Assembly: GCA_902792085.1 (NCBI GenBank)
Contig: CADAYE010000001.1
Coordinates: 62,001-126,000, forward strand
Source: an uncultured bacterium
Lineage (GTDB): Bacteria > Cyanobacteriota > Vampirovibrionia > Gastranaerophilales > Gastranaerophilaceae
DNA: 64,000 bases
Direction: 5' to 3'
Shown here: positions 28,283-35,868 of the stretch, in pieces
Layout: the number at the start of each line of letters is the position of its first letter
Numbering within the stretch: position 1 is the first letter of the stretch
Notes under the pieces: model-generated
What the model was told of the DNA's origin: nothing
The model's input: only the letters and a program-made list of their open reading frames with translations
Databases searched by the model: none
Translations under genes and position numbers: made by a program

Positions 28283-30952
28283 TTATTTAACAACGATATT
28301 AACTAATTTCCCGGGAACGACAATGGTTTTGACTATTGTTTTTCCTGATGTAAGTTCTTTTATTTTATCGCTATTTAGTGCCTGTTTTTCCATTTCTTCT
28401 TTGGAAATTTCCGCATCAACTTCGATTTTGTCTTTTACTTTGCCGTTAATCTGAACAACCATGGTTATAGAACTTGATTTGGCAAGATTTTCGTTCCATT
28501 TACACCAAGGTTGGTCATGGATTGAACCTTCTCCGCCCAATTCATGCCATGCCTCTTCAGTTAAATAAACTGCAACGGGTGACATAAGTTTGAGCATTGA
28601 AACAATAGCAAAACTCAAAACATTTTTATCTTCATCAGTCAAATAATCTTTTCCCGCCTGTGCAAACAAAGATTGCTCCGTTCCCTGCGCTCCCGCTTCG
28701 GTCACAACGGCGGACATGTTATGCTCGTTGCCTGCCGTCTTGCTCTCGCAAGCCGCACCGCAACTCCGCATCTTTAAGTTCTGCCAGTCATAAATCGCAT
28801 TTACAAGTTCACGATATTTTGAAATAACGGTATTAAACTGGAATTCGTTTGTAATATCGTTTGTAATGCCTTTAATTGAAATGTGTACTGTTCTTACCAA
28901 ATCATCATTATCTTTTGCAAGATTTGAGCCTAATGAATAATTCAGATTTATATTTTCAGCATTTGAGGCTACAAGGCGCCAAACTCTGTTTAAGAACTTA
29001 TAACAGCCTTCAACGCCTGCATCTGACCAGTCAAAATCTCTTGCAGGCGGTGAATCTGACAGGATAAATAATCTTGCTGTATCAGCACCGTAGTTTTCAA
29101 ATATCTCATCAGGGTCAACCGTATTGCCTTTTGATTTTGACATTTTCGACCCGTCTTTTAATACCATACCTTGAGTTAAGAGGTTTTTAAACGGTTCATC
29201 AAAATCTAAAAGTCCGCAATCTCTTAATGCTTTTGTGAAAAATCTTGAATACAAAAGATGTAAAATTGCATGTTCAATACCGCCGACATATTGGTCAACA
29301 GGTAACCAATGATTAACTATATCTTTGTTAAAACATTCTTTGTCATTTTTTGCATCAGCATAGCGTAAATAGTACCAACTTGAACAAATAAATGTGTCCA
29401 TCGTGTCCATTTCTCTTGTCGCATGACCTCCACAGCAAGGACAAACAGTATCTTTAAATGTTGGTGAAGTTGTGATAGGTGATTTTCCTACAACAGAAAA
29501 ATCAACATCTTTTGGTAATAATACAGGAAGTTGATCTTCCGGTACAGGCTGGATACCGCATTTATCACAATAAACTACAGGAATTGGTGCGCCCCAGTAT
29601 CTTTGACGGGAAATCAGCCAATCACGAAGTCTGAATTGAGTTTTAAATTCCCCAAAGCCTTCATCAACTGCTTTTTGGGTAATTGCTTTTTTTGCTTCGG
29701 TGTTTTTCATTCCGTTAAATTCATTTGAATTAATCAAAACACCTTCTTCAGTATATGCTTCTGTCAGTTCGTCATTGCGAGCGAAGCGAAGCAATCCAGT
29801 ATTATTTTGGATTGCCGCGTCGTCACTGCGTTCCTCCTCGCAATGACATGGTTCTATAACTACCTTCATCGGCAAATTATATTTTTTTGCAAAATCAAAA
29901 TCTCTTGTATCGTGTGTCGGAACAGCCATAACTGCCCCTGTTCCGTATTCTACCAAAGCATAATCTGCAGTCCAAAGTGGGAAAATTTCTCCTGTAAACG
30001 GGTTTTTACAATGAGTTCCGAGTGGAACACCTGTTTTTGTTCTGTCTGTTGAAAGTCTTTCGATTTCAGACATTTTACGGGCATTTGCTCTGTATTGTTC
30101 AACTGCATCTTTATTTTCCGGCGTGGTTAATTTTTCAATATCTTTATATTCCGGTGCAACAACAAGGTAAGTTATACCATGAACAGTGTCAGGTCTTGTG
30201 GTATAAACGGGAACTTCCATTTTTTCGCCTGACGGTGCATCAACAACAGGGAAACGGAAAATTGCACCATGAGATTTACCTATCCAATTTGCCTGCATTG
30301 TTTTTACATTATCACCCCAGCCTTTTAAAAGGTCTAAGTCTTTTAATAATTCGTCTGCATATTGTGTGATTTTTACAAACCATTGAGATAAGTATTTTTT
30401 CTCAACTTCACTGTCACATCTCCAGCATTTACCGTCAATTACCTGTTCGTTTGCAAGTACTGTTCCGCAATCAGGACACCAATTTACTGCGGCTTCTTTT
30501 TTATAGACAAGTCCTTTTTTATACAACTGTAAGAAAATCCACTGTGTCCATTTGTAATAATCAGGCTTGCAGGTGGTTACTTCTCTGTCCCAATCATAAG
30601 ATAAACCAAGCATTTTCAACTGTTCGGTCATATATGCAATATTTTCATCAGTCCATTTTTCAGGGTCTGCATTATGTTTCATTGCAGCGTTTTCGGCAGG
30701 TAAACCGAAACTGTCCCATCCTATCGGGTGCAAAACATTAAATCCGTTTGCTTTTTTAAATCTTGCTATAACATCTGTAATTGTATAATTGCGAACATGT
30801 CCCATGTGTAATTTCCCTGACGGATAAGGAAACATTGACAATGCGTAATATTTTGGTTTTCCGTTATCATTTTCGGTTTTAAAAACTTTATTATCTTCCC
30901 AATATTTCTTCCATTTTTTTTCAATTTCCTGCGGATAATAACTTTGTTTCAT
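28283..30952 (-). CDS. leuS: Leucyl-tRNA synthetase
   Basis: 889 residues. Class I synthetase: HMGH in GKLHMGHVRNY (about residue 46-56), the CP1 editing domain with TRPDT and GTGAVMAVPTHDTRDFDF, and KMSKSKGN. Two inserted stretches make it longer than usual: residues about 368-393 (CHCEEERSDDAAIQ then LLRFARND) in the editing domain, and about 727-766 (SAVVTEAGAQGTEQS) in the anticodon-binding domain. Both coincide with GC-rich dispersed elements and preserve the frame. Neither catalytic motif is affected. Confidence 0.97.
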   Translation of the reverse strand: MKQSYYPQEIEKKWKKYWEDNKVFKTENDNGKPKYYALSMFPYPSGKLHMGHVRNYTITDVIARFKKANGFNVLHPIGWDSFGLPAENAAMKHNADPEKWTDENIAYMTEQLKMLGLSYDWDREVTTCKPDYYKWTQWIFLQLYKKGLVYKKEAAVNWCPDCGTVLANEQVIDGKCWRCDSEVEKKYLSQWFVKITQYADELLKDLDLLKGWGDNVKTMQANWIGKSHGAIFRFPVVDAPSGEKMEVPVYTTRPDTVHGITYLVVAPEYKDIEKLTTPENKDAVEQYRANARKMSEIERLSTDRTKTGVPLGTHCKNPFTGEIFPLWTADYALVEYGTGAVMAVPTHDTRDFDFAKKYNLPMKVVIEPCHCEEERSDDAAIQNNTGLLRFARNDELTEAYTEEGVLINSNEFNGMKNTEAKKAITQKAVDEGFGEFKTQFRLRDWLISRQRYWGAPIPVVYCDKCGIQPVPEDQLPVLLPKDVDFSVVGKSPITTSPTFKDTVCPCCGGHATREMDTMDTFICSSWYYLRYADAKNDKECFNKDIVNHWLPVDQYVGGIEHAILHLLYSRFFTKALRDCGLLDFDEPFKNLLTQGMVLKDGSKMSKSKGNTVDPDEIFENYGADTARLFILSDSPPARDFDWSDAGVEGCYKFLNRVWRLVASNAENINLNYSLGSNLAKDNDDLVRTVHISIKGITNDITNEFQFNTVISKYRELVNAIYDWQNLKMRSCGAACESKTAGNEHNMSAVVTEAGAQGTEQSLFAQAGKDYLTDEDKNVLSFAIVSMLKLMSPVAVYLTEEAWHELGGEGSIHDQPWCKWNENLAKSSSITMVVQINGKVKDKIEVDAEISKEEMEKQALNSDKIKELTSGKTIVKTIVVPGKLVNIVVK
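28650..28771 (-). repeat. GC-rich in-frame insertion in leuS anticodon-binding domain
   Basis: About 120 nt with GC content well above the gene, encoding residues from RSCGAACESK through AGNEHNMS to TEQSLFAQAG. LeuS proteins normally have only a short loop here. It has the look of a dispersed element translated in frame. Confidence 0.6.
29771..29847 (-). repeat. In-frame palindromic element in leuS editing domain
   Basis: Ends are GTCATTGCGAG and CTCGCAATGAC in inverted orientation; GCAATCCAGT and GGATTGCCG form the inner stem. It adds about 26 residues. The same building blocks occur in the intergenic element at 35885-35983. Confidence 0.85.
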
Positions 30953-31544: not shown

Positions 31545-31604
31545 TAATTTTTTGTAACAATATGTTCTTTTATGTTTGACATGATTTTGTCCTTATTTTA
31601 CTAT

Positions 31605-31761
31605 CATGGAACAAAGAGGAAATGGAGTGAATATCTTCAACTGCTGGCGCAGCCGTAAAAGTCGGAACACTCAAAGGATAATTATTTTTTCACGCACAGT
31701 TTGAGGAAATAATATAAAAATCTTATGATGTGTCCTCTTTGAAGTCAGAGAGGATTTTTTA
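31605..31761 (+). promoter_or_regulatory. Structured leader with two exclusive folds, candidate riboswitch
   Basis: CAAAGAGGA (31612-31620) is exactly complementary to TCCTCTTTG (31733-31741). The latter can instead pair with AGAGAGGA (31747-31754), forming a hairpin followed by six T residues and directly adjoining the ATG at 31762. That 3' arm is also the only possible ribosome site. Between the arms, GAGTG (31625-31629) and CACTC enclose hairpins CTGC-TGGC-GCAG and CCG-TAAAAGT-CGG. The order of elements resembles the cobalamin riboswitch core, but its P3 helix is not evident. Confidence 0.5.
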
Positions 31762-32445
31762 ATGTCAGTAGGAGCACCGCATATACATAATTCAAAACTC
31801 GGCAGTTGTCCGCATGGACTTCCTGCCGGCGCATGTCCGATATGCAGCGGAATGGCAGGCGGTAATTCTACGACCAAAAGAGATACCCCAAGAAATGTTG
31901 GGGAAATGACTTATAACCAATGCGCTGCAATAGGAGCAATGTTAAGAGCGCAAAAAGCCGCAAGACAAAGAGCCGAAGCAAATCAGCAAAGTTTTATTCA
32001 ATCTATGGTGCAATTTAATAAAAATCTTGAAAATGTTCATCAAAAGATTTTAGAATTTGCATCAAATATTTCAAAAACAATGCCTGTTATAATTTCTGCT
32101 CCTGTGAATTTCGTTCTTACACAGGTTGTAGCAAGAATAGTTAATATAATGGCGCAAATTCCAAATGTTATGGCTAATTTTGTTCAAAAATTTGTTGATA
32201 TTGCGGATAAATTAGCGGCAGTTTACGGGGAAATGAAAGCAGCCGTTTCACAATCTTTATCAAATCTTATGGGCAGTATCAAGAAAAAACTAAAATCTAT
32301 TTTCTTTGTTTTTGGTGCGGATGAAACAGATGATGAAGAAAAGAAAATTGACGAAACTCAAAAAGCGTTTAATCTTAAGACATTTTTGCATAGTCTTTCA
32401 CGCAAATTTAAGCGTGAAGAAGAAAGGATAGCACATGAACATTAA
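31762..32445 (+). CDS. Hypothetical protein with Cys/His-rich N-terminus
   Basis: 227 residues. The first 35 residues contain HIH, then CPHGLPAGACPICSGM, a probable metal-binding knuckle, followed by a charged segment, a hydrophobic amphipathic stretch (about 105-150) and a Lys/Glu-rich tail. Family not recognised. Expression appears to be gated by the leader described at 31605-31761. It overlaps the next gene by 11 nt, so three or more lineage-specific proteins are made together. Confidence 0.72.
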   Translation: MSVGAPHIHNSKLGSCPHGLPAGACPICSGMAGGNSTTKRDTPRNVGEMTYNQCAAIGAMLRAQKAARQRAEANQQSFIQSMVQFNKNLENVHQKILEFASNISKTMPVIISAPVNFVLTQVVARIVNIMAQIPNVMANFVQKFVDIADKLAAVYGEMKAAVSQSLSNLMGSIKKKLKSIFFVFGADETDDEEKKIDETQKAFNLKTFLHSLSRKFKREEERIAHEH

Positions 32446-33952
32446 TCCTTTTGCAAACGAACAATTGATTCAGCACAGAAATATGACTCAATCCCAAAAG
32501 CGCAATATCAACACGACAAAAGAAGGAGTTGTCGTAAATAGTTTTGTCAAAGATAATGAAGTTTCATTGTCAAATTTGAAAGATACTTTTATAATTTCTG
32601 AAGATATATCAATGCCTTCACAATTATATAAAGATAATCGGATTGTCGATAAAAAACTTTTGCCTTTAAGTACGGTTGCATTGGGAGTAATGGGTGCAAT
32701 AGCAGGTCTGACAGGTTTTGTCAGATACAGTGCAAAAGCGTCAAAAAATCTTGCTAAAGAAAAATGGCTTCCTGCGGTTACAAGAAATGTTAATTTAAGC
32801 AAAGAAACTTCACAGGTTATTTATCAGATGGTACAAAGCCCTAACAGCAAAACATTTATAGCGGGCGCAGGGGTTTTAACCTTATCTGCTATGGCATTTA
32901 TGGGTAAAACATTTTTTGACGGCTACAAAGATATTTGGGTAAAACGCAAAGAAGCAAATATTCAGAAGAATTTGCAGGAAAATTTGATTGCAGTTGAAAC
33001 GCAGTCATTTTCAGGCAAAATGCAAATAATTCGTTCAATGCTTTCAAAATATACAAAAGAATTTGAGGGATTTTTAAACCCGCCTGAAGAAAAACCTGAT
33101 ACTCCGTTTGGGCGTAAGACTTTTGCACAGTTTGCGTTTAGTGCTAATGAAAATTCTGCCACCTCACGGGGAGAAATGCCTAAAGCAAAGGGGGTAAATA
33201 ATTTTGGCAACATTTTATTAGGTATTGCCACTCTTGCCGGTATTGTAGGGTTAGGATTTTTGTCATTAAAAAATTTGACAAAAAGTAAGATGCACTTGCA
33301 GGAAAGTCTTGAAAATACGAAAAAAGCAATTTCTCAAATAGTACAAACTTCAACTAATGAAACCAAATCTTCTGATGCAGAAAATCTTGAACACATGTTT
33401 GTGGAAATTGAAAATTCAAAAGGAATAAAAGAGTTTGTAAAAGAGCAAATTTCAGCATTAAATTGGACTGATAAAGAAAAATCGGATTTTGAGAAAAAAG
33501 TCATTGAAAAAATAGAAACTTCAACTACAAAGGTTAATCCGAATATTGGCGGTGACGGAACTCCAAAACCTGCATTTAATTCATTTGTTGATGATTACAA
33601 AGCATTTTTTTACAATTGGCTTTTAGACACATCAAATCCGCAGTTTGGTTTGTTGTTTGGCGGAATAACAGGTATAACGGCAATCGGCTACGGAGGTAAA
33701 CTTGCAGGCGAAGCCCTGAAAGAAGTTCAGGTCAAAAAAATTAATGCGCAGACTGAACTTGATTTGCAAAAACGTCTTGTATCAACAGAATTGAGAAACT
33801 TTAAAGCAAAAAAAGATTCTGCAATAAATCCGCTTGTTAAAGAATTTTATAAACAGGTCGATAGCGGAAAGCGTACAAAAGATGAACTTAAAACAATGGC
33901 GGAAAATATATTGTTTGAAGTTAAAAACGGACCGCCGTTTGTTTATTCATAG
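32435..33952 (+). CDS. Hypothetical membrane protein
   Basis: 505 residues, four likely membrane segments (about 78-96, 142-165, 258-280 and 400-420) separated by charged helical regions. Family not recognised; architecture is close to the protein at 1944-3509, so the two sets may be paralogous. Residues about 243-254 (ATSRGEMPKAKGV) look like another translated dispersed element. It begins inside the end of the upstream gene. Confidence 0.72.
   Translation: MNINPFANEQLIQHRNMTQSQKRNINTTKEGVVVNSFVKDNEVSLSNLKDTFIISEDISMPSQLYKDNRIVDKKLLPLSTVALGVMGAIAGLTGFVRYSAKASKNLAKEKWLPAVTRNVNLSKETSQVIYQMVQSPNSKTFIAGAGVLTLSAMAFMGKTFFDGYKDIWVKRKEANIQKNLQENLIAVETQSFSGKMQIIRSMLSKYTKEFEGFLNPPEEKPDTPFGRKTFAQFAFSANENSATSRGEMPKAKGVNNFGNILLGIATLAGIVGLGFLSLKNLTKSKMHLQESLENTKKAISQIVQTSTNETKSSDAENLEHMFVEIENSKGIKEFVKEQISALNWTDKEKSDFEKKVIEKIETSTTKVNPNIGGDGTPKPAFNSFVDDYKAFFYNWLLDTSNPQFGLLFGGITGITAIGYGGKLAGEALKEVQVKKINAQTELDLQKRLVSTELRNFKAKKDSAINPLVKEFYKQVDSGKRTKDELKTMAENILFEVKNGPPFVYS
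33162..33198 (+). repeat. Possible in-frame element in hypothetical membrane protein gene
   Basis: CCACCTCACGGGGAGAAATG followed by GCAAAGGGGG is G/C-rich relative to the gene and encodes ATSRGEMPKAKG. It resembles the general form of the nadB/cca element but does not align closely with it. Confidence 0.35.
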
Positions 33953-33957
33953 AAATT

Positions 33958-34437
33958 ATGATTCAATCTGTTACTCAATATAATATAAATCCATATTCGC
34001 GATATATTTGTGCTTCTGCTCAGTTACCGACAAAAGGCAGAAATTATTGCGTATTTGATAAAAACGAAGTAGATTATTTTGTAAAACAAAAAGAAAATGC
34101 CCTGCCTTATCTGACAGATATTTTGGAACATTCAAATAATGAAGCACAGGTAACAGAAACTCTTTATATTATGGACAGAATGCTTGATAACGGTACAAAA
34201 GGAATAGATAAACTCTATCCTGTTTTTTCAAGATTTAATCAAACTCAGTCGCCAAATATTCAGACTTTTTTAGCGGGAATTTATCGCAAAATTCAGGTGC
34301 CTGATGCCTTTGGACCGTTATGTAAAATGCTTATTCAAAACTCAATGAAGCCCAATAATCCTAATCAGGCTTTTGACCCGAATGAAGAAATCGGCGGTGC
34401 AATTTTGAGTTATTTGTCCGACAGATGGAGAGGGTAA
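33958..34437 (+). CDS. Hypothetical protein, HEAT-like
   Basis: 159 residues, soluble and mostly helical. Repeated helical pairs (LPYLTDILEHSNNEAQVTET, LYIMDRMLDNGTKGIDKLYP) suggest HEAT/ARM-type repeats, but this is an impression only. It follows the membrane protein by 5 nt with no clear ribosome site, so it is probably translated by coupling. Confidence 0.65.
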   Translation: MIQSVTQYNINPYSRYICASAQLPTKGRNYCVFDKNEVDYFVKQKENALPYLTDILEHSNNEAQVTETLYIMDRMLDNGTKGIDKLYPVFSRFNQTQSPNIQTFLAGIYRKIQVPDAFGPLCKMLIQNSMKPNNPNQAFDPNEEIGGAILSYLSDRWRG

Positions 34438-34506: not shown

Positions 34507-35868
34507 ATGAAAAAGATATTTGTTTTACTGCTTGCAGGTATTTTTACCGCCAATTGTGCAATCGCTCGTGATTATGCAAAATTGCAAATCAAAGAAATGC
34601 AGCATGCACAAAAATATAATACAACCCAAAAGTTTTTCTCAAACCAAAACGCTATACAGAAAAATTTTAACTATCTCACTTCAAAACCTGAACAAAATAT
34701 TTATATAAAAGACCCGAAAATATTTAAACTTTCGGACTATCAGGAGGTTGATGAAGCAAAATATCAGGAAAAATTAAAAGCAGATGATAAAATATATTCT
34801 CAATATAAAAAATCAATGTTTAAAGGTGAAATTTTCAGTTATAGTGCTAAATCAAACGGTGAAGATTATTACAAAGTATACCGTATTGCAGAGCGAATCA
34901 TAAGAGCAAATAAACTTGATTATATAAATTGGCGCATCGGTATATATAAAGATGCAGAAAATATTAATGCTTATTCCACAGGTCCAAATTATATAGCAAT
35001 AAGTACATCTTTATATGATTCATTTAATAATAATGATGATGCATTGGCTTTAGTAATTGGTCATGAAATTGCCCATACAGTTTTAGGGCATAGTCAAAGA
35101 AAAATGGATATTGCAAGATTAATGATGAATTTGCAGAATTTATACAAAGCAGGTGATATTCACGCAAAAGCATTGTTTGCAATAAAATCTCAACAACTAC
35201 TGACAGATGGTAAAAACATGGAATATGCAGCAGATGTTGAGGGCGCAAAACTTGCAGTTAAAGCAGGTTATAGTTTAGATGAATCTTCTGACTTGCTTTC
35301 TTTTTTAAATACTGATATTGTTATCCCCGGATACCTCAGTGACCATCCTGTCGGAAATAAACGAATAGAAAATTTCTATGAAAACAGAAAATATTTTATT
35401 GAAGATCAATGGGCGCAAATCGGGAAATATAATATTATGAATTCCGAAGTTATGCCCGTAAAATTGTCTTCTGACAGAAAGTCTTTGACTATCGGAAAAA
35501 CTCATGAAACACAGTCAAAAGAAAATTACTACAGCGTTGAATCAATGGAGGATGTTTATTTAAGATTCGCTTATAAGTCTTATGTAAATGGTGAGTTTAA
35601 AAAATCTGCTAAATACTTTAAGCAGTATTTTGAACTAAACAAAACTAATGCAATAGCATATTTGTATGCTTCGTATAATTCTGAAGCAATTTATAAGGTA
35701 TTACAAAGAGCAGGCGCATTGGAAAATGCAAAAGAATATATCGCAAATGCCTATAATCTAAATAAGAATAATCAATATATAAAAGAGCAATATGACAATA
35801 TAAACAATATTTCACCTTTAAGTGACGACAATAATAAAAAGGAAACAAAATCTAAAAAGAAAAAATAG
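34507..35868 (+). CDS. Secreted M48-family metallopeptidase with TPR-like tail (BepA-like)
   Basis: 453 residues. Signal peptide at residues 1-21. Zinc motif in VIGHEIAHTVLGH (about residue 184-196) and the third ligand in MEYAADVEGAKLA, as in M48 peptidases. After residue 340 there are helical repeats of TPR type, then a Lys-rich end. Periplasmic M48-TPR proteins such as BepA control outer-membrane protein assembly, which would suit a species with large autotransporters. A strong AAGGAG site precedes the ATG. Confidence 0.9.
   Translation: MKKIFVLLLAGIFTANCAIARDYAKLQIKEMQHAQKYNTTQKFFSNQNAIQKNFNYLTSKPEQNIYIKDPKIFKLSDYQEVDEAKYQEKLKADDKIYSQYKKSMFKGEIFSYSAKSNGEDYYKVYRIAERIIRANKLDYINWRIGIYKDAENINAYSTGPNYIAISTSLYDSFNNNDDALALVIGHEIAHTVLGHSQRKMDIARLMMNLQNLYKAGDIHAKALFAIKSQQLLTDGKNMEYAADVEGAKLAVKAGYSLDESSDLLSFLNTDIVIPGYLSDHPVGNKRIENFYENRKYFIEDQWAQIGKYNIMNSEVMPVKLSSDRKSLTIGKTHETQSKENYYSVESMEDVYLRFAYKSYVNGEFKKSAKYFKQYFELNKTNAIAYLYASYNSEAIYKVLQRAGALENAKEYIANAYNLNKNNQYIKEQYDNINNISPLSDDNNKKETKSKKKK

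Follow-up and report, generated by a model that had tools for sequence, protein, structure and literature searches.

A putative class II cobalamin riboswitch with a compact switching platform upstream of a three-gene operon in Gastranaerophilales

Two described systems stand closest to the leader studied here. One is the AdoCbl-II family of Rfam (RF01689), which was named AdoCbl-variant in an earlier study (PMC2864571). The other is the switch of the M. tuberculosis ppe2 gene, a proposed variant of class IIb, the AdoCbl-selective class whose signature is GGAA at J3/4 together with UCU at J6/3 (PMC11260477). Our leader (31610-31761) lies within the window (the whole stretch of 64,000 nucleotides that was analyzed), which belongs to a 1.92-Mb genome whose nearest named relatives are Gastranaerophilales/Melainabacteria genomes from rumen and gut metagenomes.

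The leader shares with RF01689 a P3–P6 core carrying the L4 and L6 motifs in a short form without large periphery, an L5–L13 kissing loop and a position before a B12-related regulon, but its P3 is cut to 3 bp, the P3 strand doubles as an antiterminator, and the transcript probably starts at that strand, which would leave the outer helix of the model untranscribed. Its likeness to the ppe2 switch (PMC11260477) extends to GGAA at J3/4 without UCU in J6/3, to the lack of a P8–P12 extension, and to a downstream gene of uncertain function. Whereas ppe2 acts on translation and involves a uORF (PMC11260477), the window leader ends in a U-tailed terminator whose stem holds the SD, and no uORF was seen. 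A second AdoCbl-II copy in the same cell (C7:133483-133557), adjoined by nrdD, belongs to the same aptamer family but differs from the window leader in having a P3 of about 9 bp and no switching platform on the P3 strand.

Class and anatomy of the aptamer

A scan of the whole window against Rfam at curated thresholds returned an RF01689 match at 31604-31677 on the forward strand, with 36.7 bits against a gathering score of 36.5, a margin of 0.2 bits over the cut-off. The alignment spans the full model (1-81) with P3, P4, P5, and P6 aligned, and RF01689 is the best match of the leader within its clan. An L10-leader match overlapping the platform scored far below threshold and was taken as chance. 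The original prediction, which had proposed such a covariance search, wavered between a shortened cobalamin class and a new metal or cofactor sensor. The first view is borne out, with RF01689 above its gathering score and sister copies preceding known B12-riboswitch targets, while the second is not needed to explain anything observed. Across the family, RF01689 matches occur in 133/146 genomes, 114/146 above the cut-off, with a top score of 54.4 bits. The promoter and aptamer comprise the following elements.

31576-31581 and 31599-31604, + strand: promoter by consensus match, with -35 TTGACA, a 17-nt spacer and -10 TACTAT
about 31610-31672, + strand: transcribed aptamer, within the RF01689 match
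31616-31618, + strand: P3 5′ strand GAG, pairing with CUC at 31670-31672
31623-31639, + strand: P4 hairpin (31623-31627 with 31635-31639), loop UGAAUAU, with compensatory pairs AU/UA/GC/CG
31641-31652, + strand: P5 hairpin with L5 = UGGC (31645-31648), from the model alignment
31653-31665, + strand: P6 hairpin, CCG with CGG, from the model alignment
31670-31672, + strand: P3 3′ strand CUC, pairing with 31616-31618
31681-31713, + strand: P13 hairpin predicted by folding, with L13 = CGCACAGUU (31693-31701), which would kiss L5

The P3–P6 four-way junction is present with conserved GGAAA, GUGAA, GCA..CGUAA, and GUCGGA, and the core motifs are those described in the original prediction. P3, by contrast, had been thought lacking; it exists as 3 bp that are paired in 62/62 distinct leaders with compensatory changes (GC, AT, GT, CG, or TA at the third pair), and its total extension exceeds all 5000 permutations when kinship is ignored. 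P3 measures about 9 bp in NrdD leaders, and in most leaders of the three-gene operon it consists of 3 bp followed by mismatches; a short P3 would fit a strand that must stay free to switch. The long-range pair from J4/5 to the last L6 base is standard in 52/53 aptamers (GC in 23, AT in 22, GT in 7, AC in 1), and L5 matches L13 better within leaders than between them (164.3 vs. 139.0, sd 4.6; P = 2e-4, permutation ignoring kinship). In three leaders (L036, L037, and L147), L6 carries an additional stem of about 55 nt, and an aptamer with an L6 insertion in genome G102 is missed by the Rfam model.

With the class I periphery defined as in PMC11260477, the large P8–P12 periphery of that class (RF00174) is absent from the window leader, in which L6 has 7 nt and 4 nt lie between P6 and P3′. 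As for the class IIb signature, GGAA is present at J3/4 and J6/3 reads AACA, without UCU. The outer closing helix of RF01689 (model positions 1-6) is not formed, with mismatches in the model alignment, and bases 31604-31609 lie at the -10 box, 5′ of the predicted start. Promoter sequence and distance to the aptamer are conserved across homologous leaders (the spacing in most of them). Because the promoter ends at 31604, the transcript probably starts near 31610, right at the switching strand, and the outermost RF01689 helix would therefore not be in the RNA; this helix is not essential to the curated RF01689 score.

Switching platform and proposed mechanism

The leader combines two alternative helices, formed by the following parts.

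31612-31620, + strand: switching strand CAAAGAGGA, overlapping the P3 5′ strand
31730-31741, + strand: antiterminator partner, GUG (pairing with J6/3-P3′) plus UCCUCUUUG
31732-31760, + strand: terminator and SD-sequestering hairpin of conserved stem, with a six-U tail and the SD AGAGAGGA at 31747-31754

The switching strand is an exact 9-bp complement of TCCTCTTTG (31733-31741), which alternatively pairs with CAGAGAGGA (31746-31754), the arm that includes the SD. The terminator hairpin has a computed energy of -13.2 kcal/mol, and its SD arm is followed by six T (31755-31760), one A and the ATG at 31762. These are the switching helix and the SD-hiding, T-tailed hairpin 1 nt before the ATG that had been predicted, with coordinates and pairing unchanged. 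A perfect 9-nt complement within 157 nt arises in 3–4% of shuffles and is weak alone, and we therefore accepted the platform on its conservation across homologous leaders. Alignment of these leaders, also proposed in the original prediction, revealed covarying pairs and conservation of the core motif and of both alternative helices, each of which matches better within than between leaders. The core AGAGGA/UCCUCU/AGAGGA was found in 42 leaders (35 distinct), among which extension of the ON helix past the hexamer core beats permutations (P = 0.008; Watson–Crick pairs only, P = 0.003). The OFF stem likewise outperforms permutations (P = 1e-4), kinship being ignored throughout. A second ON helix joins J6/3-P3′ to the three bases before UCCUC and covaries, taking the forms CA/GUG, CG/GCG, and UG/GCA (P = 6e-4, again ignoring kinship). 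In the genome collection, the aptamer lies upstream in 36/36 loci encoding the gene 1 protein, with the same platform in most; some operon leaders (L049, L064, and L067) lack a clear terminator. In leader L022, upstream of 469, repeated ACGCGCTACGCGAGGTGGGGTAAATA units separate aptamer and platform.

A simple mechanism would follow from these alternatives. In the absence of cobalamin, the 5′-terminal mRNA segment 31612-31620 would pair with 31733-31741 and J6/3-P3′ with GUG at 31730-31732, and this antiterminator would leave the SD arm unpaired, allowing expression of the operon. With cobalamin, the P3–P6 junction and the L5–L13 kissing loop would be stabilized and P3 would retain its 5′ strand, so that 31733-31741 would pair with the SD arm; the resulting hairpin, a terminator with a U tail, would also conceal the ribosome site. 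When forced, the ON and OFF folds have nearly equal computed energies (-38.6 vs. -39.9 kcal/mol), and the optimal fold computed before the SD arm is made contains the ON helix. We infer cobalamin binding, the direction of switching (toward OFF when ligand is bound, as geometry and class suggest) and the level of control, termination or translation block; with its six-U tail and SD, the OFF hairpin can affect transcription or translation or the two together. Sequence and covariation establish the anatomy of the leader, which on these grounds belongs genuinely to a known riboswitch class and has a compact switching platform. We consider it very probable that it is a class II (AdoCbl-II type) cobalamin riboswitch and an OFF switch with the predicted ligand response.

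Riboswitch targets and the three-gene operon

We classified 131 AdoCbl-II sites, comprising the better-scoring ones from the 146-genome search and the second site of the window's genome and thus not a random sample. Of these, 98 precede the three-gene operon and 26 precede the class III ribonucleotide reductase NrdD, which is B12-independent; five lie before a TonB-dependent receptor, one before a putative B12-binding radical-SAM protein (likeness judged by eye), and one before another target. Domains were confirmed for five example target genes. B12 repression of NrdDG in organisms that also have NrdJ was proposed earlier (PMC545781). The TonB-dependent receptors, plausible outer-membrane B12 receptors, are those at L063, L159, L167, L222, and L235. 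Class II B12 riboswitches thus appear to govern a regulon that spans this major gut lineage, a relative of cyanobacteria, and their commonest target in its main family is the operon, which about nine in ten of the order's sampled genomes possess. Its genes in the window are as follows.

31762-32445, + strand: gene 1, a 227-aa CPHGLPAGACPIC helical protein of no family at cut-off
32435-33952, + strand: gene 2, a 505-aa protein with hydrophobic segments, from conserved order, alignment and hydropathy
33958-34437, + strand: gene 3, a 159-aa protein, 3′ of gene 2 in 35/36 loci

The order 1-2-3 is constant in 35/36 loci, and the contig of the remaining one ends too early. A 57-row alignment of the gene 1 protein has invariant C16, H18, C25, C28, and C54. 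The description of this protein as Cys/His-rich holds for one N-terminal Cys/His motif; the rest is long helices in a low-confidence AlphaFold2 model (mean pLDDT 57, and 52 for the 505-aa protein). At curated cut-offs, none of the three proteins could be assigned to a known family: matches in Pfam, NCBIfam, PHROGs, and the PDB were weak, coiled-coil-like and below cut-off. A plasmid or phage origin was rejected, no match to the 505-aa protein having been found. In the part of the open library searched, we found no literature on the operon genes or linking Gastranaerophilales to cobalamin riboswitches. The gene 1 protein is near-universal, being present in 261/286 genomes of the order, and it co-occurs with the riboswitch: among 122 genomes searched for the two, 108 have both, eight have neither and three and three are discordant (P = 2.6e-8, Fisher's exact test ignoring kinship), and one discordant genome, G102, does carry the riboswitch, with its L6 insertion. 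Just 3′ of the operon lies a gene for an M48-family peptidase (34507-35868), which is probably not part of it, since only a handful of close relatives have it there.

B12 economy of the lineage and the role of the operon

B12-dependent NrdJ is present in 19/21 sampled genomes and a BtuR-type adenosyltransferase in 10/13 sampled genomes of the window's genus, the window's genome having both, and FecCD permease (BtuC) and CobS are absent from all sampled genomes of that genus. This combination leads us to expect B12 import without a recognizable BtuCDF, for which the operon is a candidate. Our most likely, if tentative, reading is that the three genes form a lineage-specific operon with a plausible role in B12 acquisition or handling, a Gastranaerophilales system not described before; if the operon does move or handle B12, it would help explain how B12 is supplied in this lineage. 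Against such a role stand the absence of any B12-binding domain over cut-off in the window's genome and six genomes (G150, G021, G024, G029, G049, and G103) in which riboswitch and operon persist with NrdJ and BtuR missing. Some operon-bearing genomes have none of the B12 enzymes searched for, a search that covered few B12-dependent families. Conversely, genus g26 is without riboswitch, operon and BtuR, and without NrdJ except for split partial matches in G130, and comparing it with those six genomes we found no clean tie between operon presence and B12 use. No PduO-type adenosyltransferase occurs in 21 genomes, and QueG, considered as a hidden B12 user, had no match in any of 60. The window's genome has two CobA/CobO/BtuR-type adenosyltransferase genes (C1:58517-59044 and C1:236530-237051), as do many relatives.

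The same riboswitch could instead control a B12-independent substitute, or a function that, like NrdD, is shut down in the presence of B12. This would accord with the rank of NrdD as second commonest target, with the genomes that keep the operon without NrdJ or BtuR and with the uniform absence of QueG, but no enzyme-like domain is found in any of the three proteins and the hydrophobic segments of gene 2 suggest a membrane role, and we regard it as rather unlikely. The retention of riboswitch and operon by some genomes that lack NrdJ and BtuR also makes the form of cobalamin sensed uncertain. An aptamer of cobalamin fold that now senses another corrinoid or cofactor is improbable: several riboswitch genomes do lack both an AdoCbl-making adenosyltransferase and every B12 enzyme searched for, and the ppe2 switch shows that class IIb members differ in the ligand they prefer (PMC11260477), yet the core is conserved, copies elsewhere in the lineage lie upstream of canonical B12 targets, and the enzyme absences concern only a few families. 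That the hairpin is a mere terminator or attenuator and the remainder chance, as the shuffle frequency of the 9-nt complement taken alone might allow, is scarcely credible: most genomes of the family carry a match to the curated model, and five separate elements covary.

Elsewhere in the window, leuS (28283-30952, minus strand) contains an in-frame insert, PCHCEEERSDDAAIQ..GLLRFARNDELTEAY, at 29750-29851. Absent from all other fetched loci, it contains inverted-repeat DNA and resembles a palindromic mobile element lodged in a coding gene.
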